Shown: positions 2 to 12,870 of the stretch, one piece after another | Position numbering within the stretch: the first letter of the stretch is position 1 | Layout: every line of letters starts with the position of its first letter | From: Deltaproteobacteria bacterium | GTDB taxonomy: Bacteria > Desulfobacterota > Deferrimicrobia > Deferrimicrobiales > Deferrimicrobiaceae | DNA: 46,610 nt | NCBI GenBank assembly: GCA_016234845.1 | Contig: JACRNP010000056.1 | Coordinates: 1 to 46,610, forward strand | Reading direction: 5' to 3' | Notes under the pieces: generated by a model | Told to the model about the DNA's origin: nothing | Database searches by the model: none | What the model saw: the letters and a program-made list of their open reading frames with translations, nothing else | Program-made: the position numbers and the translations under genes

Positions 2-493
2 GTCAACTACTCCCTCGGGATGCAGGCGCAGGCCGTCTCCGGGGGGTGGTCCGCCGCCCGGAAGGCGGGGAGGATGTTCCGGTTCGGCGGGGGCGCGGAG
101 TGGACGCCCGGCGCCCGGCACGCGGCGGCCGCGGCGGGACTCGCCGCGGCCGCTCTTTTCCTGCTGCGGAGCGCCTTGCGGCGCCGGAGGACGATGGGAG
201 ACGGTGCACCGGGAAGACGCGCCCGCTTGCCGGCCCCGTACGCCCGTCTCGCCGCCCGCCTGGAACGCGCCGGATTCCGCCCATCCCCCGGAGCCCCCAT
301 GGAGGAGATGGTCGGGGCTGCGGTAGCGTCGCGGCCGGAACTGGCGGAGAACGCGGCCCGGTTCCTTCCCCTGTACCACCGGGACCGCTTCGGTCCCGTC
401 CCGCTCGCGCCGCCGCTACGGGAGGAGGCGTTCCGTCGGGCGGAGTCGCTTCGAAGGGGGCTCCCGACCCGCGCGGCGCGGGTGGTAGAATGA
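2..493 (+). CDS. TgpA-like transglutaminase, C-terminal part (5' truncated)
   Basis: The reading frame is open from the window edge, so only the last 163 residues of a larger protein are present. The fragment begins with VNYSLG, which resembles the sequence just after the transglutaminase domain in TgpA/DUF3488 proteins. A hydrophobic, alanine- and leucine-rich segment (about residues 40-58 of the fragment) followed by an Arg cluster looks like the last membrane helix. The tail, with ELAENAARFLPLYHRDRFGP, resembles the DUF4129 domain that closes TgpA proteins. TgpA proteins are inner-membrane enzymes with a periplasmic transglutaminase domain, often beside MoxR and DUF58 genes; those would lie upstream, outside the window. 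The family call rests on a short fragment and should be confirmed with the full gene. Confidence 0.62.
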   Translation, partial: VNYSLGMQAQAVSGGWSAARKAGRMFRFGGGAEWTPGARHAAAAAGLAAAALFLLRSALRRRRTMGDGAPGRRARLPAPYARLAARLERAGFRPSPGAPMEEMVGAAVASRPELAENAARFLPLYHRDRFGPVPLAPPLREEAFRRAESLRRGLPTRAARVVE

Positions 494-528
494 TTTCCTT
501 GCGCGATCCATCGCCGACAAGGGGTTCG

Positions 529-2001
529 ATGCGTTTCCGTTCGACCGTCCGCCGCTGCCTGGTTCCCGTCTCCGTCCTGGCCGTCGCGCTTGCCGCGGCG
601 CCGGGGCGGGCCGCGAGGGTTCCGGTCGCCTCCTTCCCCCCGGGGTTCACCCTTCCCCGGGGCGATATCGTGTTCCAGTCGCGCATGCCGCTGGCGGACA
701 TCGCTCCCGGAGAGTGGACGGAGCGCCAGAGGGGAGAGGTCGCGTACTTCCGGGAGCAGATGCGCAAGCGCGACGAGATCTTCCTGCTCGTGCAGGTGAC
801 GCTCGACGCCATCGGGCGGACGGACGAGAACGAGGGGCTGGCCAACGAGGTGGCGCAGGCGGTCGCGGTGAGGCTCCGGGACGCCGGCATCCCGCCGGAC
901 CGGATGCTCATCCTTCCCGGACGGGAGGATCGCGCGTCCCTCGACGGGCCGCGGCTTTCGGGCTTCGCGCGGCACCAGGTCGTGGAAATCACCGGCTTCC
1001 TCGGAAGCGAATGGCTTCGGAGAAAACCGCCGCAGGAGGTGCGCCGCGCCGTCGATCTCCCGCCGCCGGCCGGGATCTCCCTCCTCGAGCCCGCGGACGC
1101 GGGAACCGACCGGGCGAACCACATGCTCCGGGGGACCACGGACCCGTCGGTGGCAAGCCTCGCCGTGACGATCGGCCAGGACGCACGGACCGTCGCCGTC
1201 CGGGACGGGCGGTTCGAGACGCCGATTTCCCTGCGGTCCGGCGAAAACCCGATCGTGGTCACCGGCCTGGACCCGTTCGGCCGCGTCCTCAGGGCGTCGA
1301 GGACCGTCCGCTACACGCCGCCCCATCCCACGATCGAGATCCTCTCCCCCGCGGAGGGGACGGTGACCGACGTCTCCCGGTCGCCGGTGATCTCGGTGCG
1401 CGGGGCGATCCGGAGCAGGACTCCGCTCCGGGAGGCGTTTCTCATCCAGAACGACATCCCGAGGAACATCCCCGTCCGGGAGGACGGCACGTTCCTCCAG
1501 CAGGCGATTCTCATGACCGAGGCGGACACGTTCCAGGTGGAGGCGATCGACACGGCGGGAGAGACGGGCACCAGCGGGATCCGGCGGGCGCCCTCGAGGG
1601 GGATCGCGGATCGCCCGTTGATGGCGATCCTCCATTGGGACGAGGACGACGTCGATCTCGATCTCCACGTCGACGACGGATCGGATCACCACACCTGGTT
1701 CGACGCCGCGGACGCGCTGGAGAACCCGTCCGCGATCCCGGAAGGGAAACTGTGGATCGACAACCGCCGGGGTTTCGGCCCGGAGGTCTTCACGATGGAG
1801 AGGACCGTCCCGGGCGAGTACGCCTTCTCCGTCCGCCGGTATCGCGGAAAGAAGCGGTGCCGCGCGTTTCTCACCCTCGTGCTGTTCGCCGGAGCGCCGT
1901 CCCGGAAGCTCGTCCGGGTCTACGGGCCGGTGGAACTCTCGGAGGAATCCCCGGCCGCGGAAATCGTCCGCGTCTCGCTCCCCTCGGGGATCGTGCGGTA
2001 G
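529..2001 (+). CDS. Exported protein with OmpA-like segment and C-terminal DUF2135 (YfaP-like) domain
   Basis: 490 residues. The start at 529 has AGGGG just upstream and gives a clean Sec signal (MRFRST then a hydrophobic stretch ending near residue 28). An in-frame ATG at 490 overlaps the preceding stop, but would put 13 polar residues before the signal. Residues about 85-135 (TDENEGLANEVAQAVAVRL, then GIPPDRM) look like the peptidoglycan-binding half of an OmpA-type domain. The middle contains Ig-like beta strands with a repeated IEILSPAEG-type motif. Residues about 365-460 match the DUF2135/YfaP pattern (ILHWDEDDVDLDLHV, then WIDNRRGFGPE), a periplasmic beta domain of unknown role. It is probably cotranscribed with the following secreted genes. 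I infer a structural or adaptor role in the periplasm; no catalytic motif is visible. Confidence 0.75.
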   Translation: MRFRSTVRRCLVPVSVLAVALAAAPGRAARVPVASFPPGFTLPRGDIVFQSRMPLADIAPGEWTERQRGEVAYFREQMRKRDEIFLLVQVTLDAIGRTDENEGLANEVAQAVAVRLRDAGIPPDRMLILPGREDRASLDGPRLSGFARHQVVEITGFLGSEWLRRKPPQEVRRAVDLPPPAGISLLEPADAGTDRANHMLRGTTDPSVASLAVTIGQDARTVAVRDGRFETPISLRSGENPIVVTGLDPFGRVLRASRTVRYTPPHPTIEILSPAEGTVTDVSRSPVISVRGAIRSRTPLREAFLIQNDIPRNIPVREDGTFLQQAILMTEADTFQVEAIDTAGETGTSGIRRAPSRGIADRPLMAILHWDEDDVDLDLHVDDGSDHHTWFDAADALENPSAIPEGKLWIDNRRGFGPEVFTMERTVPGEYAFSVRRYRGKKRCRAFLTLVLFAGAPSRKLVRVYGPVELSEESPAAEIVRVSLPSGIVR

Positions 2002-2031
2002 CCGGCCCCAAACGACGAAAGGACGAAACCG

Positions 2032-2556
2032 ATGAACACGACCCAACGGATCGCCGGGATCTGCGTCCTCCTGGTCTTTTCCTGCCTCCCGCAGCCGTCG
2101 CGCGGGGCCGACGACGCCGTCGATCCGATCGAGCGGGAACTCGCCGCCACCTTGAAGGAGATGGACGCCCTCTCGGCGGAGCTGGACCGGATCGAGGAGA
2201 TCGCGGCGACGCCGAAGGCGACGTCCGTCCGTTTCGAGATCCGCCGGTCGGGGAACGTCCCGGCGCCGGCGGCCCTCCGGCTGTATCTGTCCGGAAAGCC
2301 GGAGCCGGAGCGGGAGTGGACGAAAGCGGACCGCGACCGGTTCCTCTCCGGGACGGAACCGGTCGTGTTCGTCGCGCCGATCCTCCCCGGGACGCAGGAG
2401 GCGCGCGTAGTTCTGACCCACCCGACCTGGAAGGTCTCCCCCTCCCGCGATTTCCGCCCGGCGGTTTCTCCCGGCGGGACGTTCCTCCTGCGGCTTACGC
2501 TCGCGGCGCAGCCGGACGGAAACGAACCGTCGCTCGTCCCGTCGCCGGAGAAGTAG
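2032..2556 (+). CDS. Small secreted protein of unknown function
   Basis: 174 residues. The ATG is preceded by GAAAGGAC at good spacing. Residues 1-25 form a Sec signal (hydrophobic GICVLLVFSCL, cut near SRGA). A short amphipathic helix follows (IERELAATLKEMDALSAELDRIEE, about 33-58) and could form a coiled coil. After it comes a beta-rich domain with VRFEIRRSGNVPAPAALRLYLSG and a repeated VxLTHPTW/LRLTL pattern. I do not recognise a named family. It sits 30 bp after the DUF2135 gene and 5 bp before the giant TPR gene, so it is almost certainly translated with them and is probably a periplasmic or outer-membrane-associated subunit of the same system. Confidence 0.72.
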   Translation: MNTTQRIAGICVLLVFSCLPQPSRGADDAVDPIERELAATLKEMDALSAELDRIEEIAATPKATSVRFEIRRSGNVPAPAALRLYLSGKPEPEREWTKADRDRFLSGTEPVVFVAPILPGTQEARVVLTHPTWKVSPSRDFRPAVSPGGTFLLRLTLAAQPDGNEPSLVPSPEK

Positions 2557-2561
2557 GGTCG

Positions 2562-5500
2562 GTGTTCCTCCGGCGTCTGCCCTCCGGGGCCTTGCTCCTG
2601 CTCGCGCTGTGCGTCGAGGCGCACGGAGGATCCGTCGTCCGCGCCGACTCTCCCGAGGAGTGGCTCCGCCTCGGCCTTCCGAGGGAGGCGGTGCGGAGCT
2701 ACGTCGCGCTCCCGCCTGCCGCCCGCCACGGGAGCCCCGCGCTCCCCCGGCTCCTGCGCGACCTGGCCGGGGCCGGGAAGGAGGATGAGGCGCTTCGCCT
2801 GTTCCACGAGGAGCTCCCCCGTCTCGCGGAACCGGTCCGCTCCGCCGCGATCCTCGAGGCGGGGAAGATCCGATGGCGCAGGAAGGAGCACGACGAGGCC
2901 GCGGACCTTTTCCGGCGGATCCGTCCCGGCTCCCCCGAAGCGCAGGATGCCGCCGCGTACGTCGCGCGCCACCTCGCCGCCCGGGGCGATCCGGGAGGGG
3001 CGATCCGGACGCTCGGCGCCGCGCCCGACGGGCCGGTGAAATCCCGATTGGCCGCGGAGATCGGGCGGATGCGGGGCGGCCCGGAAAGCGCGCCTCCGGA
3101 ACGGGCACGGGAGTCCCCCGGGGCGGACGTCGAGCGGGCGTCGGGAATCCCGGGGAAGGTGGAGTTCCTTTCGGCCCTGGCGCGGGCCCGACTTTCGTCC
3201 GGCGACCGGGCGGGCGCGCTCGAGGCGGCCCGGGAAGGGCTCGCGGACATCGGCCGGTGGCGTTCCGCCGTCGCGGCGCAGACCCTGTGGGACGGCACGC
3301 ATCCGGGGGCGGAAGCTTCGCTTGCGGGGGCGGTCTCCCTGTTCCCCTTCGGCGAGGACGTATCGGCGCTCGAGGCGCCGGGGCGGCGGTTTCTCTCCCT
3401 TTCCGCCCTTCACCGCACCCTGGTCGAATCCCGGGAGCGGGCCGCGTCGTTGGCCCGGGATGCGCGGCGCCGGGCGGATGCGGTCCGGGCCCGGATCGCG
3501 CTGCATTCCGGGAAACGGGCGAGGCTCGAGCAGGTCGAGGGCCGTTTCCGGGACGACGCCCGGCGGTCCGGCGGCGTCCCGCGCCGCCTGCTCCTCGCGG
3601 CGGACGAACTCTCCGTGACCGGGTGGGGGGAGCGGTCCGACCGCCATACGGCGGCCCTGCTCGACGAGACCGCGGAGAGGCTCTCGCGGATTTCCGCCGC
3701 CGCGAGGAAGCTCGGATCGACGATGCGGGCGAGAGTCGCCTGGGAGGACACGCGGGGGCTCCCCCCGGAGGACCAGAGGATGATCATCTTCGCCCGGGAC
3801 CGCCTCGCGAAGGCGGGCGGGACGCTCGAGGCGCTGGAGGCGAAGGTGACGCTGCTGCGGGCGAAGGTATGGGCACGGTGGAAGGAATCGTACGCGGAAC
3901 GCCTCTCCCGGGATTTCGACGCCGCGGAGAGCGCGAGGGCGCGGGGGGAGGAAGGAGCGGCGCGCGCGCGGCGGATCGGGAGCCGTCTGCGCGGGGAGTC
4001 CGCGGAGCTCGCGGCGTGGGAGACCTTTCTGGGAAGGATGGAGGAGCGGATGACGGTCGACGCGGCGGCCCTCGGAAAAGCCCGCGCCGACGTCCACCGG
4101 TTCGCGGCGGAGGCGCTCGCGGCCGCCCGGAACGCCGCCGGGCCGGCGATCGCGCGGAAGGAGCGCGGGCTTCACCGCCTCGCCGGGCGCGCGGCGGCGG
4201 AGTGGTTCCTCGAGGGGAAACCCGCGGCGGCCGACAACGGCGCGGGGACGCCGCCGCCCGCGATGCTCCCGGAGGCGATCCGCCACCTCGAGGCGTCCAT
4301 CCCGCCCGCGGGGGAACGCGCCCCGCACATGGACGAAACGCTGTACACGCTGGCGGCCCTCCGCTTCGAGGAGGCGGAGCGCGGTTATTACGGGGGGCGG
4401 GACGGGGAACGGAAGGATGCGCCGGACCTGGCGGTCCCCGCCCGCCTGTTCCGCAAGGTGGCCGACGACTTCCCCGGGAGCCCCTACGGCGAGGCCGCCT
4501 TCTACGGCCTCTCCCTCTGCCTGCAGGAGTCGGGGGCTCCCGACAACGCGGCCGCCGTCCTGGAGACGCTCCTCTCGCGATACCCCGCCACGCGGTACGC
4601 GGACGAGGCGAACCTGCGCCTCGGGGAGCACCGGTTCGACCGGTACGATTTCCCCGGTGCCGAGACGGCGTACCGGAAGGTGCGGGACGGGGCGGCGCCG
4701 GAAGTCGCGATCACCGCCCGCTTCAAGCTCGGCTGGGCGCTGTTCCTCCAGGGACGACCGGCGGAGGCGGCGGAGAAGTTCACGGAGGCGTCGCTCCTGT
4801 CGGCCGGCGCCTCCAGGACCGGCGGCCTTCGGGAAGAGGCCCGGCGGATGACGGCCCGCTCCCTGATCGAGGCCGGCGCGGAACGGGAGGCGGAGACGTT
4901 CCTTTCCCGCCGCGCCGCCGCCGCCGAAGGGGGCGCGGTCCTCCTGGAGATCGAGCGGCTGCTGGAGGCGCAGAACCGGTACGACGAGGCGGCGGCGGTC
5001 GCGACCCGCCTGGGGGCGGCCTACCCGCTCGCCCCCGAGCGGGTATCCGCCGAGGAGGAGGCGGCCGCGGCGCTCCGGAAGGGCGGGAGGATCGACGAGA
5101 GCATGTCGCGCCGGGGAGCGTTTCACGCCGCCTTCGGTCCCGGCACGCCGTGGCGGAAATCCCCCGGACGGACCGCCGCCGAGATATCCCGCGCGGACTC
5201 CCTCTCCATGGAAGGTCTCACCGCGGCCGGCTTCCATTTCCACGCCGCCGCACGGGAGAAGCCTCCGGGTGACCGTTCCCGCGTCCTCGCCCTGTACGAC
5301 GCGTTCCTTTCCCGTTTCCCCGCGGCGGAGAAGTCCGGAGAGGTGGCGTACCAGCGGGCGTGGCTCCTGTTCGAGGACGGGAGGAAGCGGGACGCCTTGC
5401 CGGCGTTCGAGGCGGTGGCCCGGCGCCCATCGGGGGCCCGCGGCGAGGCGGCGCGGTACATGGCGGTCCCGTGCGCCAAGGACCTCTCGTCTCCCGCCGA

Positions 5501-6884
5501 CGCGGCGTCGCAGGGGGAAATCGTGCGCCTGGCGGGAGAGTACGAGCGGGCGTACCCCCGGGGCGAGCGCATCCGGCCGGTTCTTCTGGACCGCGCGCGC
5601 GCGCACTACAACCGGAAGGAGTGGGACGCGGCGGCGAAGGCGGCGGGGGAGTCGGGGCGGCGGACCGAAGATCCCGGCGACCGCAGGACGGCGTTCCGGT
5701 TGGCGGGCGAGGCGCTCTTCGAGGCGGGTCGATACCCGGACGCGGAAGGCGCGTTCCGCGAGATCCTCGCCGCGTCGCCCCCCGACGGGGAACGCGCGGA
5801 GGCGCAGAAGTGGGTCGGCTTCTCGATGTTCCGCTCGGCGGAACGGTTCCCCGCTTCGCGCGGCGCGGACGCGGGCGCCCTGTTCCTCCGGATCGCCCGG
5901 GAGTTTCCGGCGCTCCCGATCGTTCCCGAGGCCCGTTTCCGCGCCGGCGCCGCGTTCGCGGACGCGGGGAGGAGCGCGGAGGCGATCGACGCGTACCGGT
6001 CCGTCGAAACGGCGCACGCGGATTCCCCGCTGGCGGAAACCGCCACCCGGCGCCTCGCGGCGCTGTACGAGAAGACCGGACAGCCGCTGCCGGCGGCGGA
6101 GCGGCTGGAGCGCCTGTCGGCGGGAGAGAAAGGCGGCGAAGCGAGGGCCGGCATGCTCTTCCGGTCGGCGGAGCTGTACTCTCGCGGGAAGGAGGAGGCC
6201 CGATCGAGGAAGGCGTACGGAGCGGCCGCCGCGGTCGCCGACGCGCCGGCGCCGCTGAAGATCCTTTCCCTCTTCCGGGCCGGCGAGAGCGCCCGGGCGG
6301 ATGGGCTTGCGATCGAGGCGGACAGCCGGTACGACGAGGCGGTGAAAATCCACCGGGAATCGGGAGGGGCGGCGCCGGAGATCGCGGGGCGCGCGCTCCA
6401 CCGGCGCGCCGAGGCGAAATTGAGCGCATACCTGCCGATCCGCATCGCGCCGCCGCTCGAGCGGACGTACGCGGAGAAGCAGCAGGCGCTCGAGGCGTGC
6501 GTCGCCCTGTACGCGGACGCGGTCCGGATCGGTGACGCCGGAACCGTGTCCGCCTCCCTTCATCGGATCGGGGAGGCGCTCGAGGATTTCCGCGCGGCCG
6601 TCCTGGCCTCCCCTCCCCCGCCGGAGCTTTCTTCCGCGGAGAAGGAGGAGTATCTCTTCCTGCTGGAGGAGCGGGCCGCCCCGATCGAGGAGCGCGCCGT
6701 CCTGAGCTTCCGGAACAACGTGCGCCAGGCGGCCGCCGCGGACCATTTCGACGACTGGGTGGCGAAGAGCCGGGAACGCCTTCGGTCGTTGCGGCCCGCC
6801 GTATTCGGAAAGCGGGCCGAGTTCGCCTTCCCGACCGTTCCGGTCCCCGACTTCGTCGGGATCACGGAGAGGGCGATCCCGTGA
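2562..6884 (+). CDS. Giant periplasmic TPR-repeat protein
   Basis: 1440 residues from a GTG at 2562, which follows GGAG at 2547-2550 and gives a signal peptide (RRLPSGALLLLALCVEAHGG). No start further upstream makes sense because the frame then runs through the preceding genes. The protein is almost wholly helical. About 285-335 is a charged coiled coil (ESRERAASLARDARRR). Tetratricopeptide-like pairs run from about 620 to 760 (LFRKVADDFPGSPYGEAAFYGL, YPATRYADEANLRLG) and again from about 1055 to 1190, in the style of the BamD/CpoB tol-pal repeats. No enzymatic motif is seen. Very large periplasmic TPR proteins are known in the Myxococcus gliding (Glt) apparatus, where they scaffold the envelope-spanning complex; a similar role is inferred here from the AgmX/PglI-domain partner downstream. 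The gene overlaps the next by 4 bp (GTGA). Confidence 0.82.
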   Translation: MFLRRLPSGALLLLALCVEAHGGSVVRADSPEEWLRLGLPREAVRSYVALPPAARHGSPALPRLLRDLAGAGKEDEALRLFHEELPRLAEPVRSAAILEAGKIRWRRKEHDEAADLFRRIRPGSPEAQDAAAYVARHLAARGDPGGAIRTLGAAPDGPVKSRLAAEIGRMRGGPESAPPERARESPGADVERASGIPGKVEFLSALARARLSSGDRAGALEAAREGLADIGRWRSAVAAQTLWDGTHPGAEASLAGAVSLFPFGEDVSALEAPGRRFLSLSALHRTLVESRERAASLARDARRRADAVRARIALHSGKRARLEQVEGRFRDDARRSGGVPRRLLLAADELSVTGWGERSDRHTAALLDETAERLSRISAAARKLGSTMRARVAWEDTRGLPPEDQRMIIFARDRLAKAGGTLEALEAKVTLLRAKVWARWKESYAERLSRDFDAAESARARGEEGAARARRIGSRLRGESAELAAWETFLGRMEERMTVDAAALGKARADVHRFAAEALAAARNAAGPAIARKERGLHRLAGRAAAEWFLEGKPAAADNGAGTPPPAMLPEAIRHLEASIPPAGERAPHMDETLYTLAALRFEEAERGYYGGRDGERKDAPDLAVPARLFRKVADDFPGSPYGEAAFYGLSLCLQESGAPDNAAAVLETLLSRYPATRYADEANLRLGEHRFDRYDFPGAETAYRKVRDGAAPEVAITARFKLGWALFLQGRPAEAAEKFTEASLLSAGASRTGGLREEARRMTARSLIEAGAEREAETFLSRRAAAAEGGAVLLEIERLLEAQNRYDEAAAVATRLGAAYPLAPERVSAEEEAAAALRKGGRIDESMSRRGAFHAAFGPGTPWRKSPGRTAAEISRADSLSMEGLTAAGFHFHAAAREKPPGDRSRVLALYDAFLSRFPAAEKSGEVAYQRAWLLFEDGRKRDALPAFEAVARRPSGARGEAARYMAVPCAKDLSSPADAASQGEIVRLAGEYERAYPRGERIRPVLLDRARAHYNRKEWDAAAKAAGESGRRTEDPGDRRTAFRLAGEALFEAGRYPDAEGAFREILAASPPDGERAEAQKWVGFSMFRSAERFPASRGADAGALFLRIAREFPALPIVPEARFRAGAAFADAGRSAEAIDAYRSVETAHADSPLAETATRRLAALYEKTGQPLPAAERLERLSAGEKGGEARAGMLFRSAELYSRGKEEARSRKAYGAAAAVADAPAPLKILSLFRAGESARADGLAIEADSRYDEAVKIHRESGGAAPEIAGRALHRRAEAKLSAYLPIRIAPPLERTYAEKQQALEACVALYADAVRIGDAGTVSASLHRIGEALEDFRAAVLASPPPPELSSAEKEEYLFLLEERAAPIEERAVLSFRNNVRQAAAADHFDDWVAKSRERLRSLRPAVFGKRAEFAFPTVPVPDFVGITERAIP

Positions 6885-8041
6885 CGCGAAAACCGATATC
6901 CATCGCGGTCGCCGCCCTGTTCGCCGTCCTGCACGCGGGATGCGCCCCGCAGCGGGCCGCGCTCCTGCCCGCTCCTCCGTCCGAGGTCCGGAGGACGGCG
7001 CCCGGAACCGCCTCCGTCCCCTCCGGCGCCTCCCCCGCGCCCGGGCCGGATTACGGATCGTTGTACCGGGAATCGTTGACCCGGACCCGCGACCTGCTGC
7101 GGGCGGGGGAGGCGCGGAAGGCGGTGCCGCTGTGGGACGCGCTGGAGAAGACCCCGTTCGCCGCCGAAGCCTTTTTCAACCGCGGAGTGCTCCTCCAGCT
7201 CTCCGGAGATCGAGACGGGGCGGAATCGCAGTATCGACGCGCCGCGTCCCCCCCGCTCCTGTCGGAGCCCGCGGCCGCGAACCTTCTCGGCATCGCGCTG
7301 CTCCGGGGCGATCGGGAGAAGCTGCGCGAGTTCGTCGACAACGCCGTGAAGCCGGTCACGGCGCTCCCGGGCGACCGCCTCCCCGAACTCTCCTCCAACC
7401 TTTTCGCTGCGCTGATCGACCTGGCGCGCGTCGAGGAGGCGGAAACGGCTTACGGGAGATTGTCGGCAAGGGGGACGGCCACCCCTTCCCTGCCCTGGAA
7501 CCGGGCCGTGCTGGCGTATCGAAAGGGAGATCCGGTGGACGCGCGGAGGTACGCCGCGGCCGTTCCGCCCTCGGTGGCGGCGCTGTGGCCGGTGGCGGCC
7601 TCCCGCGTGGCGTGGGAGCGGGACCCGTCGAATGTCCCGCCGCTTTCCGACGACGGTTCCGCCGAACCGCGGATCCGGTCGCTCTCCGCCAATCTCGAGG
7701 CGCACCGCGCATGGACAAAGGGCGAATACGCCGCCGCCCGGGACCTGCTCCGGTCGGCCGCCGGGGAACGGCCATCCGGCGAATCCCTGACGAATTTGGG
7801 AGTCGTCCTTGCCGAAATGGGAAAATGGAAGGAAGCGCTGGGGGCGCTGGAACGGTCGGCGAAAGAGGCGCCGAACCTGCCGGAGGCGTGGCTGAACCTC
7901 GGGCTGTTCCGGGAGATGTACCTCGGTGACGCTCCGGGAGCCATCCTGTGCTACGAACGGTACGTGCGGCTGAACGGTCCGAGAAAGGAGGAGGCGTCGA
8001 GGTGGTCCGAGGGACTGAAAAAATCGCAACCGTCGCGCTGA
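6881..8041 (+). CDS. TPR-repeat lipoprotein
   Basis: 386 residues. The GTG start overlaps the previous stop as GTGA. The N-terminus is a lipoprotein signal: MTRKPIS, a hydrophobic run, then LHAGC, with Cys21 as the predicted lipidated residue. TPR units are visible at about residues 70-125 (GEARKAVPLWDALEKTPFAAEAFFNRGVLLQLSGDRDGAESQYRRA) and at the C-terminus (SLTNLGVVLAEMGKWKEALGALERS, LPEAWLNLGLFREMY). It resembles in layout, not in proven homology, the TPR lipoprotein AglT/GltE of Myxococcus. With the giant TPR protein it probably forms the scaffold between inner and outer membrane. Confidence 0.8.
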   Translation: MTRKPISIAVAALFAVLHAGCAPQRAALLPAPPSEVRRTAPGTASVPSGASPAPGPDYGSLYRESLTRTRDLLRAGEARKAVPLWDALEKTPFAAEAFFNRGVLLQLSGDRDGAESQYRRAASPPLLSEPAAANLLGIALLRGDREKLREFVDNAVKPVTALPGDRLPELSSNLFAALIDLARVEEAETAYGRLSARGTATPSLPWNRAVLAYRKGDPVDARRYAAAVPPSVAALWPVAASRVAWERDPSNVPPLSDDGSAEPRIRSLSANLEAHRAWTKGEYAAARDLLRSAAGERPSGESLTNLGVVLAEMGKWKEALGALERSAKEAPNLPEAWLNLGLFREMYLGDAPGAILCYERYVRLNGPRKEEASRWSEGLKKSQPSR

Positions 8042-8286
8042 TCGCGCTGCTGTGGGTCGTTGCGCCTTCCCCCGCGGAGGCGGCGGGGCCGGTTGGCGCG
8101 GCCGGAAGGGATCCCGGGGGCGCGGTGCGGCTCGACGAGGTGCGGATCACGGGGAGCCCGGAGCACCCGGGGATCCTCTTCTTCCTCCCGCGAACCCGTT
8201 TCCGCCTCCTCCCCCTGCGGACGGAACGGGATGACGCCGGCGACATGCTGCGGGACGATCGGGAGAAGGGAGCGCCGGCCCCTTGA
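8002..8286 (+). CDS. Small exported protein beside the TonB-like gene
   Basis: 94 residues from a GTG at 8002, preceded by AAGGAGG at 7985-7991, inside the end of the TPR lipoprotein gene (40-bp overlap). A signal peptide is clear (KIATVALIALLWVVAPSPAEA). The mature part has a VRLDEVRITGSPEHPGILF core followed by FLPRTRFRLLPL. Similar short proteins carrying an EI.G.V..P-type core lie beside AgmX/PglI-domain genes in deltaproteobacteria; this comparison is from memory and not tested. The stop overlaps the next start (TTGA), implying coupled translation and a shared complex. Function unknown. Confidence 0.7.
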   Translation: MVRGTEKIATVALIALLWVVAPSPAEAAGPVGAAGRDPGGAVRLDEVRITGSPEHPGILFFLPRTRFRLLPLRTERDDAGDMLRDDREKGAPAP

Positions 8287-9188
8287 ATTTCGACGTCCGC
8301 CCCGACGGCATCGTCGTCCTCCCCGGCGACCGGGTTCCGCCGTTTTTCCGCATCGCGGTCGCGCTGTCGGTCGCGTTGCACTTCGCCGTCCTGATGACCA
8401 GTCCCTACTGGCAGAGCCGGCCGGATGCGGGGGAGCGGATCGTCGAGATCGACATCGCCGAGATGCCGAAGGAGGAGGTCCCCGCCATCCCCGAGGTGCG
8501 GGTCCGCGCGCCGGAAGCGGTCCCCCCGCCCCCGCCGAGGCCGTCCGCCGCGGCGATGGAACCGCCCTCCCCGGCCGAGACCGCGCCGCCCAGCCGGGAG
8601 GCGATCCGCGAAAAGGTGGCTTCCCGGGGGATCCTGAAGATGCTCGGGGAAAAAGGGGCCGCGGATCCGCTTCCGTCCATCCGGCTTCCCGGCGATCTGC
8701 GCCCGTCCCCCCCCCGCGCGAATCCGTCCCCCGGCGACTACGTTCCCCGCCCGGTCGAGGAAGGGGGGAAGGCGAGGAACCCGGGGATCGAGCGGCAGAT
8801 CGCGGCCGCGCCTCGGGCGCAGAAGACCATGGTCTCGCAGACGTTCCGCACCGACTCCGGGCTGGAGGCGGAGATCTCCGGGGCATCCGACGAGCCGTCG
8901 CGGTCGTTCCAGGCGATCGCGGCGACCGTGAAGCAGTACCAGGGCGGAATCCGGTACGTGTACAATCGGGAGCTGCTCGTGAACCCGAACCTCGCGGGGA
9001 AGATGATGGTCGCGTTCGTCATCCTCCCGGACGGGACCGTCGACTCGGTGGAGGTGCGCCAGAGCACCCTCGGCTGGCCCGCCCTGGACGACGCGGTGAA
9101 GGGGCGGATGCGCCACTGGAAATTCCCCCGCGGGGCCGGAGGACCGGTCCGAGTGGTGTTCCCCTTCGTCTTCCACCCAGAGATGTGA
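8283..9188 (+). CDS. TonB-like energy transducer with AgmX/PglI C-terminal domain
   Basis: 301 residues from a TTG at 8283 that overlaps the previous stop. Order of parts: a cytoplasmic N-terminal tail of about 20 residues, one membrane helix (about 22-41, FFRIAVALSVALHFAVLM), a proline-rich periplasmic span (about 60-180, with EAVPPPPPRPS) and a C-terminal domain (about 215-301: YQGGIRYVYNRELLVNPNLAG, then MMVAFVILPDGTVDSVEV and FPFVFHPEM). The C-terminal pattern IRYxYxRELxxNPNLxGKxxVxFxIxPxGxV matches the AgmX/PglI C-terminal (TonB-like) domain of Myxococcus gliding and spore-coat machines. Such proteins receive energy from ExbB/ExbD-type motors and reach across the periplasm. No motor genes are in view; they may lie upstream of the window or elsewhere. 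Confidence 0.85.
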   Translation: MNFDVRPDGIVVLPGDRVPPFFRIAVALSVALHFAVLMTSPYWQSRPDAGERIVEIDIAEMPKEEVPAIPEVRVRAPEAVPPPPPRPSAAAMEPPSPAETAPPSREAIREKVASRGILKMLGEKGAADPLPSIRLPGDLRPSPPRANPSPGDYVPRPVEEGGKARNPGIERQIAAAPRAQKTMVSQTFRTDSGLEAEISGASDEPSRSFQAIAATVKQYQGGIRYVYNRELLVNPNLAGKMMVAFVILPDGTVDSVEVRQSTLGWPALDDAVKGRMRHWKFPRGAGGPVRVVFPFVFHPEM

Positions 9189-9198
9189 GCGCCGCGCC

Positions 9199-10188
9199 GT
9201 GCGATCCATCCTCCCCCTCATCCCGATCCTTGCCTCCCTCCTCCTTCCCGCGTCCGCCTTCCCCGGACCGGCGACGCCTGCCGCTCCCGCCTCCCGTGGG
9301 GACGCGGCGGACCGGTTGGCGAGGATCGAGCGCGCGATGTGGGAGAGGGACGACGGCGAGATCCCGTCGCTCCGGGAATGGGCCGCGGGGGACGGAAACG
9401 AAAGGGTGCGGGAGCGGGCGGTCGGCGCCCTGACCCTGCTTCGGGACATGGGATCCCGTATGCTGTTTTTCGATCGCCTGTCGGCCGACGCGTCGCCCGC
9501 GGTCCGCAGGGCCGCCGCGGATGCGATCGGCACGCTGGGAATCCCCGTCGACCGGATCGACCGCCTGACCGGCCCGCTCCAGAAGGATCCCGACGTCATG
9601 GTCCGCGCCGAGTGCGCCCGCGCCATCGGCCGGATCGGCGCCCGGCAGGCGGCGGGAATCCTCATCTACGCGCTGGCCGGCGACCCGTCCCCGGAAGTTC
9701 GGGCGCTCAGCGCGGATGCGCTTGCGCGGCTGGGCGCGAAGGAGGGCGGGGAGATTCTCCGTTCCGCCGCGCTCGCGGACGGGAACACGGTCGTCCGGCT
9801 CGCGGCGGTCCGCGCCCTGCGGCACCTTTCGCCGCAGGAGTCCATCGAGACGTTCCGCGCCGTATGGCGGGAGGGTCCGGACACGGATCTCCGCCTCGAG
9901 GCGTACCAGGGGCTGCTCGCGACCCGCGAGAGATCGGAGTGGATCCGGCAGGGGCTCGAGGAGAAGGACCCGGTCGTGCGCGCGGTGGCCGTCCGGGAGT
10001 GGCTGCTGATGCTCGACCTCCCCAGGAGAAAGGATCGCCTCGTGCGGCGTTCCGGCGAGATCCTGATGCTCGAAGGGCTGCTCAAGGATCCGGCCGGGAA
10101 CATCCGGGAAATGTCCCGGGGCGTCCTCGAAAGCCTGGGGTTCAAGGTGCGCGCCACGGGATTCTCCTACGCCATCGTGGAGGAATGA
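9199..10188 (+). CDS. Exported HEAT-repeat protein
   Basis: 329 residues from a GTG at 9199, 10 bp after the TonB-like gene; the ribosome site is weak, so translation is probably coupled. Signal peptide at 1-23 (LIPILASLLLPASAFPG). From about residue 40 onward the protein is built of HEAT/PBS-lyase-type helical pairs, for example ASPAVRRAAADAIGTLG, DVMVRAECARAIGRIG, PSPEVRALSADALARLG and NTVVRLAAVRALRHLS. These repeats bind proteins or peptides and have no catalysis of their own. Its place at the end of the secreted gene run suggests it is the last member of the envelope system. Confidence 0.82.
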   Translation: MRSILPLIPILASLLLPASAFPGPATPAAPASRGDAADRLARIERAMWERDDGEIPSLREWAAGDGNERVRERAVGALTLLRDMGSRMLFFDRLSADASPAVRRAAADAIGTLGIPVDRIDRLTGPLQKDPDVMVRAECARAIGRIGARQAAGILIYALAGDPSPEVRALSADALARLGAKEGGEILRSAALADGNTVVRLAAVRALRHLSPQESIETFRAVWREGPDTDLRLEAYQGLLATRERSEWIRQGLEEKDPVVRAVAVREWLLMLDLPRRKDRLVRRSGEILMLEGLLKDPAGNIREMSRGVLESLGFKVRATGFSYAIVEE

Positions 10189-10327
10189 CCCCCCTTCCGT
10201 CCGTTCACGATCCCATCGTCCCCGACATCGATCCGCGGCACGGCGGTTGCTGAAACCCCGACCGGCGCCGCTTCCCGTCGAGCCGCACGGACCGGACCCG
10301 GCGATCCCCGTTCGCCAAGGAGAACCC

Positions 10328-11917
10328 GTGCTCGTCCGCGCCCGGTCCTTCGCCGTCCTCGGCGTCGACGCCCTCCCCGTCGAGGTCGAAACCGACATCT
10401 CCCACGGCCTGCCGTCCTACACGGTGGTCGGCCTCCCCGGCAGCTCGGTCCGGGAAAGCGACGACCGGATCCGGGCCGCCATCCGGAATTCGGGGCTCCT
10501 GTTCCCCGGGAGGAAGTTGACCGTCAACCTCGCCCCGGCGGACCTCCGGAAGGACGGGGCGCTCCTCGATCTTCCGATCGCCCTCTCGGTGCTGTGCGCG
10601 GCGGGCATTCTTCCCGGGGAGGCTCTGGGAAAGTGGATCATCGCGGGGGAACTCTCCCTCGACGGCTCGGTCCGGCCGGTCCGCGGCGCGCTCTCCCAGG
10701 CGCTGCTCGCGCGGGATCTCGCGGTGCCGGGGGTCGTCGTCCCGGAAGGGAACGAGGAGGAGGCCCGGCTGGTCCCCGGAGTCCGCGTGGCGGCCGTCCG
10801 GTCGCTCCGGGAGGCGGCGGCGCTCCTCGCGGGAGAGACGCCCTGCCCCGCGGCCGCGGGGATTCCCGGCGCCCGCGGGAGCGAACCGGTGGGGACGCCG
10901 GACATGTCGGACGTGGTCGGCCAGCCGATGGCGCGCAGGGTCCTCGAGATCGGGGCGGCCGGCGGCCATGCGATGCTCCTGCTGGGACCCCCGGGATGCG
11001 GGAAGACGATGCTGGCCGAGCGGATGCCCGGGATCCTGCCCGACCTCACCCCTTCCGAGTCGCTCGAAACCACGCGGATCTACAGCGCGGCCGGGGAACC
11101 GCCATGGCCCCGTCCCCTGCTTCGGCGCCCGTTCCGCGCGCCCCACTCGTCGATCACGGCCGCCGCTCTCCTGGGCGGCGGGAATCCGCCGCGCGCCGGG
11201 GAGGTTTCGTTCGCGCACGGGGGTGTCCTGTTCCTCGACGAGTTCTCCGAATTCCGGCCGGAGGCGAGGGAGGCGCTGCGGCAGCCGATCGAGTCGGGGG
11301 AGATCCGGATATCCCGTGCGGGGCACCGGTACCGGTTCCCCTGCCGGTTCCTGCTGCTGGCGGCGTCCAACGCGTGCCCTTGCGGGAACGCCGGGCACCC
11401 CCGGAAGGTCTGCCGATGCTCCCCCGGGGGCCTGGAGCGGTTCCATCGGAAATTCTCCGGCCCCCTGCTCGACCGGATCGACCTCGCGGTTTCCGTCCTC
11501 CCGGTCGCCGTGGAGGAGTGGTCCGGCGAATCGATCGGGGAGAGTTCGGAGGCGGTCCGCCGAAGGGTCGTCGCGTGCCGGGCGATCCAGGAGGCGCGGT
11601 ACGCCGGGCGGGCATGCCGGACGAACGGGACGGTCCGCGCCTCCACCGCGGAGCTGCTGCGGGAGCTGTCCCCCGAGGCGCGGACATTCCTCACCCGGGC
11701 CGCGGAGCGGCTGTCCCTTTCGGGAAGGGCCATCGGGAAGGCGTGCCGGGTCGCCCGCACGATCGCCGATCTTTCGGGCGAGCCCCGCGTCCTGCTTCCC
11801 CACGCCGGAGAAAGCCTTCAGTACCGCCTCGCGGGGTTCGAGATCGCGGGAGGAGAACGACGGGAGGGGGACGGTTACAGCCGGTCGGCGATGTCCCAGA
11901 ACACCTTCTCGACGTAG
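10328..11917 (+). CDS. YifB/ComM-family Mg chelatase-like AAA+ ATPase
   Basis: 529 residues. The GTG at 10328 follows AAGGAG at 10317-10322 and yields the family's usual N-terminus (LVRARSFAVLGVDALPVEVE, then SHGLPSYTVVGLPGSSVRES). Upstream in-frame codons from 10247 look like random coding. The N-terminal Lon-like domain (about 1-180) is followed by the AAA+ module with Walker A GPPGCGKT (Lys near 226), a Walker B of LFLDEFSEF, and a C-terminal Mg-chelatase domain with a Cys-rich CPCGNAGHP..VCRC insertion typical of YifB. The homologue ComM is a branch-migration helicase in natural transformation, so a role in DNA recombination is likely. The 3' end overlaps the convergent monooxygenase-like gene by 43 bp; the conserved family end is near ESLQYR, so the last 25 or so residues are a tail. 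Confidence 0.92.
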   Translation: MLVRARSFAVLGVDALPVEVETDISHGLPSYTVVGLPGSSVRESDDRIRAAIRNSGLLFPGRKLTVNLAPADLRKDGALLDLPIALSVLCAAGILPGEALGKWIIAGELSLDGSVRPVRGALSQALLARDLAVPGVVVPEGNEEEARLVPGVRVAAVRSLREAAALLAGETPCPAAAGIPGARGSEPVGTPDMSDVVGQPMARRVLEIGAAGGHAMLLLGPPGCGKTMLAERMPGILPDLTPSESLETTRIYSAAGEPPWPRPLLRRPFRAPHSSITAAALLGGGNPPRAGEVSFAHGGVLFLDEFSEFRPEAREALRQPIESGEIRISRAGHRYRFPCRFLLLAASNACPCGNAGHPRKVCRCSPGGLERFHRKFSGPLLDRIDLAVSVLPVAVEEWSGESIGESSEAVRRRVVACRAIQEARYAGRACRTNGTVRASTAELLRELSPEARTFLTRAAERLSLSGRAIGKACRVARTIADLSGEPRVLLPHAGESLQYRLAGFEIAGGERREGDGYSRSAMSQNTFST

Positions 11918-12870
11918 TTGCGGAAACCGTGGATGAACGCGCAACGGCGGTGGAACCTCGCCAGCGACCCGCAGAAGTACAGCCCCGGCACGGTCGACTC
12001 GCCGACCGGCGAGATCCTAGGATATCCCTTCTCGCCGATCCCGACGACTCCTCCCTCGATCGGGATCCATCGGGGGCTGTACCCGGTGGCGCAGACGATC
12101 CAGTCGAACTCCTCGACCTCCCCGCCGAGGAACCGGACGGTCCGGTCCGCGACCGAGACGACCGGGTCCGCCTCGCGCAGCGACAGGATCCGGAATCGGA
12201 AGAGTTCCTTGAGGACGCTCTCGGACGATCCGCGGATGTGCTCCAGGTCCCCCGACTCGCTGAAGTACCGCAACGGGTTCCGGGTGCACAGGGTGACCCG
12301 CGCGGTTCCCGCGAGCTGGATGCACAGCTCCGCCGCCGAATTCCCGCCGCCGATCACGAGCACCTTCTTCCGGTCGTACCCCATGCAGTCCACGAAATCG
12401 CAGGAGTGGACGACGAACGGATTGCCGGCGATCCCCGGGACTTCCGGAAAACAGGGGACCGACGACGCACCCGTCGCGATCACCAGGAAGCGGCACCGGG
12501 ATTCCTCCCCGTCGACGGTCGAGACGGCGAACCCTCCATCCACCGCCCTCGCGGCGGTCGCCCCCTTGCGCTCCTCGACCGACAGCCGGTTCTCCCTGGC
12601 GAACGAATCCACGTAGCAGAGGAAATCCTCGCGGGAGGGAAAGGGGCGACGCGTCCCCGGGAGTCCCCAGAGCGGGCGGGTGAGGGTGAGCGAGGTCCAG
12701 TCGGTCCCCGGAACGGACGGGGAGAGAAGGACCATGCCGGGACGCATGTCGCGCCACGCCTGCGCGATCTTCCCCCGCTCCAGGACCCTGTGCGGGATCC
12801 CGTGCTCCCGGAAGAAATGGGAAAGGAGCAGCCCCGCCGGCCCTCCCCCGACGATCAGCACGTCCGCCAT
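11875..12870 (-). CDS. FAD-dependent NAD(P)-binding oxidoreductase (flavin monooxygenase-like)
   Basis: 331 residues. The ATG at 12870 has GGGGAGGG just upstream and opens directly on the FAD-binding strand (ADVLIVGGGPAG). A second dinucleotide fold begins near residue 165 with VLVIGGGNSA, and the motif VCATGYSPRW is the ATG(Y) signature of flavin-containing monooxygenases and related transporters' oxidoreductases. The C-terminus GLYFCGSLARFHRRCAFIHGF closes the FAD site. The complete hydroxylation signature (FxGxxxHxxx[YF]) is not clear, so it may instead be a YpdA/thioredoxin-reductase-like enzyme; the substrate is unknown. It is divergent from rplU. A possible -10 (TATACT, 12908-12903) lies upstream but has no convincing -35. 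Confidence 0.78.
   Translation of the reverse strand: MADVLIVGGGPAGLLLSHFFREHGIPHRVLERGKIAQAWRDMRPGMVLLSPSVPGTDWTSLTLTRPLWGLPGTRRPFPSREDFLCYVDSFARENRLSVEERKGATAARAVDGGFAVSTVDGEESRCRFLVIATGASSVPCFPEVPGIAGNPFVVHSCDFVDCMGYDRKKVLVIGGGNSAAELCIQLAGTARVTLCTRNPLRYFSESGDLEHIRGSSESVLKELFRFRILSLREADPVVSVADRTVRFLGGEVEEFDWIVCATGYSPRWIPIEGGVVGIGEKGYPRISPVGESTVPGLYFCGSLARFHRRCAFIHGFRNYVEKVFWDIADRL

Follow-up and report, generated by a model that had tools for sequence, protein, structure and literature searches.

How can an envelope machine of the Glt/Nfs type be driven when its gene cluster carries no motor? The question is raised by a run of seven genes in the window, meaning the whole stretch of 46,610 nucleotides analyzed here, which forms contig C55 of a draft genome of 2.5 Mb, 95.8% complete. 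A preliminary description had interpreted the run as an uncharacterised, possibly reduced relative of the Glt and Nfs machines, in which outer-membrane (OM) barrels and an ExbB/ExbD-type motor were not seen. The features of the locus, with the genes lettered A to G in reading order, are as follows.

2..493, + strand: C-terminal end of a TgpA-type transglutaminase (DUF4129), truncated by the contig start (family match; intact relative G008)
529..2001, + strand: gene A, 490 aa, exported, with an Ig-like (Glucodextran_B) domain (family search)
2032..2556, + strand: gene B, 174 aa, exported, predicted helix followed by a beta domain
2562..6884, + strand: gene C, 1440 aa TPR protein, GltD-like from residue ~520 to the end (family and profile searches)
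6881..8041, + strand: gene D, 386 aa TPR protein, probable lipoprotein, GltE-like (family and profile searches)
8002..8286, + strand: gene E, 94 aa, exported, in the GltF/CglF position (position in relatives)
8283..9188, + strand: gene F, 301 aa GltG-like transducer with membrane helix, Pro-rich linker and AgmX/PglI domain
8283..8286, + strand: E/F overlap of 4 bp, the site of ExbB-ExbD-ExbD in motor-bearing relatives
8367..8381, + strand: Ser29-x3-His33 (SVALH) in the membrane helix of F, a motor-contact motif of the TonB/TolA type
8910..9173, + strand: AgmX/PglI C-terminal domain of F (NF033768)
9199..10188, + strand: gene G, 329 aa, exported, HEAT-repeat protein (family search)

The seven successive + strand genes were confirmed, with coordinates and gaps (30, 5, -4, -40, -4 and 10 bp from A to G) that bear out the overlapping or near-overlapping ends described earlier. 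The arrangement is operon-like, GC3 is 0.81-0.91 in every gene, and no ExbB/ExbD gene was found within the seven-gene run. Because the window begins at a contig end, the genes upstream are known from relatives only. Frame 2-493 matched DUF4129 at 24.5 bits in the family search, slightly below the cutoff, and the intact transglutaminase preceding the run in G008 carries TgpA_N, Transglut_core and DUF4129 domains, in agreement with the TgpA-like protein first proposed here. Upstream of the TgpA-type gene G008 encodes a MoxR-type ATPase and a protein with a weak DUF58 match; the three neighbors together hint at envelope maintenance.

The identity of the machine depends first on protein F. Its C-terminal domain scored 86.7 bits with the AgmX/PglI model NF033768 (cutoff 40), compared with 35.9 bits for the TonB model TIGR01352 and 29.1 bits for Pfam TonB_C. 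F combines a membrane helix with an AgmX/PglI C-terminal domain, as GltG does, and it groups with the GltG-like proteins of motor-bearing clusters, although its score is below the GltG equivalog cutoff (650 bits). Since the TonB_C and TonB-family models pass their cutoffs on F, and its only sequence relatives of solved structure are C-terminal domains of TonB, F could also be read as an ordinary TonB serving outer-membrane receptors, with the TPR and HEAT genes as unrelated neighbors. The lead of the AgmX/PglI model and the preservation of gene order with Glt-core parts across families make that hardly credible, and the assignment was rejected on profile scores and synteny. The window's genome holds a single AgmX/PglI domain, so it has no further protein of this type that could be GltJ; a search of viral contigs found no AgmX domain. 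Homology to Glt was judged from NCBIfam models and from metagenome-assembled genomes (MAGs) of Myxococcales and Bdellovibrionales.

A Glt core complex of gltD, gltE, gltG and gltC with the motor genes aglR, aglQ and aglS has been described as clustered in non-gliding bacteria (Luciano et al. 2011, PMC3169522). The run matches this complex, and versions with the motor are present in the sister family, so that it can no longer be called uncharacterised in kind. The family searches placed TPR repeats in C and D and HEAT repeats in G. C is a large periplasmic TPR protein, as is GltD, and a profile of the C family scored 240-305 bits on the GltD-position proteins of motor-bearing clusters, 116 bits on a Myxococcales one and about 40-45 bits on Bdellovibrionales ones, the TPR similarity in all these scores being partly generic. 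The N-terminal part of C may correspond to GltC: the best profile match had 53.5% probability over 117 columns. A frame upstream in L061, which has no usable start, gave no match. A GltC-GltD fusion is a suggestive reading of C. Protein D has the position and TPR profile of GltE, and its score with the GltE equivalog model was 27.8 bits, short of the cutoff of 225. Its lipobox is imperfect in the window (LHAGC, with His at -3) and better in G008 (LCAC).

E lies directly upstream of ExbB in the motor-bearing relatives and has the right place and size for GltF/CglF, which is a positional argument: its profile match to Bdellovibrio proteins was 79.5%, and only 33.6% once signal peptides were removed. 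In L098 and L107 (two MAGs, one labelled Myxococcales) an E-like protein adjoins ExbB-ExbD-ExbD, apart from the GltG-like locus first found there. For gene A, Glucodextran_B was the sole significant domain in Pfam and NCBIfam, and its AlphaFold model was poor (pLDDT 49.9, below use for a fold search); a fold search with gene B returned no match under E 0.001. The TPR, AgmX/PglI and HEAT assignments of the preliminary description thus stood, its lipoprotein call for D needs the qualification just given, and its DUF2135/OmpA-like label for A was rejected, as no Pfam or NCBIfam model of that kind matched.

We have compared the locus across a collection of 26 genomes of the class, with gene layouts taken from profile searches of all frames. 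The cluster is present in ten genomes, from five genera, of the window's family. The order A-B-C-D-E-F-G is identical wherever contigs are long enough, and YifB comes next where it could be read. It had been proposed beforehand that the machine interpretation would fail if the genes were not kept together in relatives or if the domain of F fitted ordinary TonB better; neither holds, because the gene order is conserved and AgmX/PglI outscores the TonB models. Two of the loci showed peculiarities of the records. L047 (JAENIX010000004.1) is titled Actinomycetota, falls inside the window's family and has coordinates matching the cluster of G025, so its title is probably wrong. L029 (G011:C52, 3918-4946) has its AgmX gene in two frames, a likely sequencing or assembly error because close relatives are intact.

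All ten genomes (10/10) lack motor genes in the cluster. The sister-family genome G014 (RFHC01000001.1), on the other hand, reads C-D-E-ExbB-ExbD-ExbD-F-G, and the same three genes lie between E and F in L054-L058, L060, L061, L064 and L076, which include Deferrisomatales MAGs. The parent form is thus ordered GltD - GltE - small protein - ExbB - ExbD - ExbD - GltG - HEAT. At the position of the missing genes the 4-bp E/F overlap of the window recurs in G003 (JAKALO010000001.1) and G010 (JACRIV010000124.1), both labelled Deltaproteobacteria. In a tree of AgmX domains the ten motorless rows form one clade (100/96) among motor-bearing lineages, with motor-bearing G014 as its sister (99/98). This is explained most simply by loss of the motor, exactly these three genes being missing between E and F; judged from these sequences, a clean loss across the clade is well supported. 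An effect of contig edges was rejected, the junction being internal to contigs and repeated across genomes. F has changed as well: it has 301 aa, compared with 444 aa in G014, and about 125 residues before the helix are gone.

The lack of an ExbB/ExbD-type motor that was noted at the outset is accordingly a real clade-wide loss rather than the result of a truncated contig, and the proposal of a reduced Glt/Nfs-related machine is upheld by the contrast between the motor-bearing clusters of G014 and other MAGs and the motorless family. The lack of OM barrels, also taken earlier as a sign of reduction, does not by itself show it, because barrels are not part of the described core complex. As AglR, AglQ and AglS are absent from the cluster and, as far as searched, from the genomes, we regard the cluster as a derived variant and not as a full member of the Glt/Nfs core.

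In E. coli structures the Ser-x3-His of TonB and TolA contacts a Ser and a Trp that are conserved in ExbB or TolQ (PMC12215075). The helix of F carries a motif of this type (SVALH), which was found in 9/9 motorless clusters with a readable helix and in 1/18 motor-bearing clusters (L068), or 1/19 with G023 added. The corresponding site reads SVAVY in G014 and SVALL in G023, a motor-bearing member of the window's own family. Counted as loci, 9/9 versus 1/18 gives a Fisher p of about 2e-6; these counts are not independent, as the loci share ancestry and the motif probably changed a single time. The motif also occurs in AgmX-type genes without an adjacent motor (L065, L069, L073, G002, G006 and G015b), which fits a rule, read from these sequences, that Ser-x3-His may accompany a motor acting in trans.

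L068 (4168-10282), with SALSH, belongs to a Bdellovibrionales MAG in which a second cluster, L062, is without the motif. L078 (G023:C88, 6222-8540) is an ExbD-ExbD-AgmX cluster that has kept its motor within the window's family. L027 (G002, 3465-12746) and L028 (G006, 552-8635), of the same family, are arranged differently: Tad-pilus-like genes come first, followed by genes for a giant TPR protein, a small protein and an AgmX-type one whose helix has Ser-x3-His, and no ExbB/ExbD lies nearby. In G015, whose motor-bearing core is L025, a further run (L026, G015:C169, 3-7358) encodes two TPR proteins, one of them giant, together with an AgmX-type protein and what may be an outer-membrane barrel.

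Which motor, if any, could then act on F? Two ExbB and two ExbD genes are present in the window's genome, all of them outside the run: TolQ-TolR in the Tol-Pal operon (contig C22), and ExbB-ExbD followed by a TonB-like gene (contig C33). Profile searches of the ten cluster genomes revealed no two-ExbD motor elsewhere. As most of the ten assemblies are drafts split over many contigs, a divergent dedicated motor encoded at a distance might have been missed in them; we consider this very unlikely, for our searches do pick up the two-ExbD motors of G014, G015 and G023, divergent as these are, and G001, rated 100% complete in 10 contigs, has two ExbD genes only.

TolR was found in 8/10 cluster genomes. 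The exceptions are G025 (75% complete), where TolB is present and TolR was not found, and G024 (97% complete), which has the cluster and no ExbB, TolR or TolB in its assembly, probably because a contig is missing. Taken at face value, G024 would suit a different explanation, namely that F is unpowered and has become a passive tether or scaffold by which the TPR and HEAT proteins are anchored to the inner membrane, and the loss of the dedicated motor is in keeping with it too. Such a tether would have no need of the Ser and the His, which are constant in 9/9 readable members while the remaining helix is variable. We therefore find a passive role unlikely, though it is the least improbable of the alternatives.

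For a powered F, TolQR is the best candidate, because in G008 and G010 the profile searches found no ExbD other than TolR, and because the partner motif Ser-x3-Trp is present on the window's TolQ (SVVSW) and not on its ExbB (SVVTV). One further ExbB-family protein of G008 proved to be of the MotA type. The other candidate is the Ton-type ExbB-ExbD pair. Besides its presence with a TonB-like gene in the window's genome, non-Tol ExbB-ExbD pairs occur in G001, G003, G011 and G027; the two carriers whose only ExbD is TolR, and the absence from the window's ExbB of the Trp that opposes the Ser-His pair in E. coli, nevertheless render it distinctly improbable that this pair powers F in place of TolQR. 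AglR-like proteins of motor-bearing clusters have no Trp at the partner site. A Myxococcales genome, however, has Ser-x3-His on its GltG-like protein and yet no Trp on its AglR-like protein. Because of this control the motif alone does not single out TolQ, and the value of the TolQ Trp as proof of TolQR use is weakened.

Taking these results together, we propose that the seven genes encode a Glt/Nfs-type core without a motor of its own, and that a motor acting in trans, most probably TolQR, powers its transducer; we put the probability of this reading at roughly 0.6. The ancestor would have had its own AglRQS-type proton motor, of one ExbB and two ExbD, between E and F. In the window's lineage the three motor genes were lost and F shed its N-terminal cytoplasmic part. 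The helix with Ser-x3-His might then be the means by which F contacts ExbB or TolQ, as in TonB and TolA, a physical coupling that is suggested here by the motif. F would be energized by a general motor of the cell, presumably TolQR, and the Pro-rich linker and AgmX domain of F could relay force to the TPR and HEAT proteins of the periplasm and to the TPR lipoprotein at the outer membrane. By analogy with Nfs and Glt, the work done may be to move or arrange an envelope or surface polymer. A trans-acting motor is plausible because Glt and Nfs of M. xanthus, which move surface polymers, share a motor whose genes lie elsewhere (PMC3858216). That the lineage has captured a motor in full, with the AglRQS-type motor lost, a TolA-like helix on the GltG protein and TolQR powering both Tol-Pal and the Glt/Nfs-type machine, is advanced more tentatively, at a little short of even odds.

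A clade that has the transducer parts but no motor, with a matching difference at the contact site, separates the job of the transducer from the identity of the motor and offers a compact system open to experiment. Should TolQR indeed power it, two envelope machines would share one ion motor, and a motif of two residues might be of use in predicting which AgmX-type proteins work with a motor encoded elsewhere. The Glt core has been known since 2011 from bacteria in which gliding has not been recorded, and no function has been assigned to it; the motorless version with its matching motif difference appears to be new.

In comparison with the Glt/Nfs core complex, the window's cluster likewise groups a GltG-like transducer of the AgmX/PglI type with TPR proteins resembling GltD and GltE, in bacteria with no gliding known. 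It differs in having no aglR, aglQ or aglS nearby or, within the reach of the searches, anywhere in the genome, in a shorter GltG-like protein with Ser-x3-His, and in genes A and B and the TgpA-type gene upstream. The M. xanthus Nfs and Glt machines have related transducer parts and, there too, a motor encoded away from the transducer cluster (PMC3858216), but that motor is a dedicated AglRQS; moreover, the OM barrel and Group A components GltA, B, H, I, J and K, or their Nfs equivalents, were not seen in the window's cluster. No Pal, TolB or receptor gene is present in it either, unlike in the Tol-Pal and Ton systems. With TolA and TonB, F shares an inner-membrane helix with Ser-x3-His, a long linker and a TonB-type C-terminal domain, whereas this domain is of the AgmX/PglI type in F and the partners are TPR and HEAT proteins.
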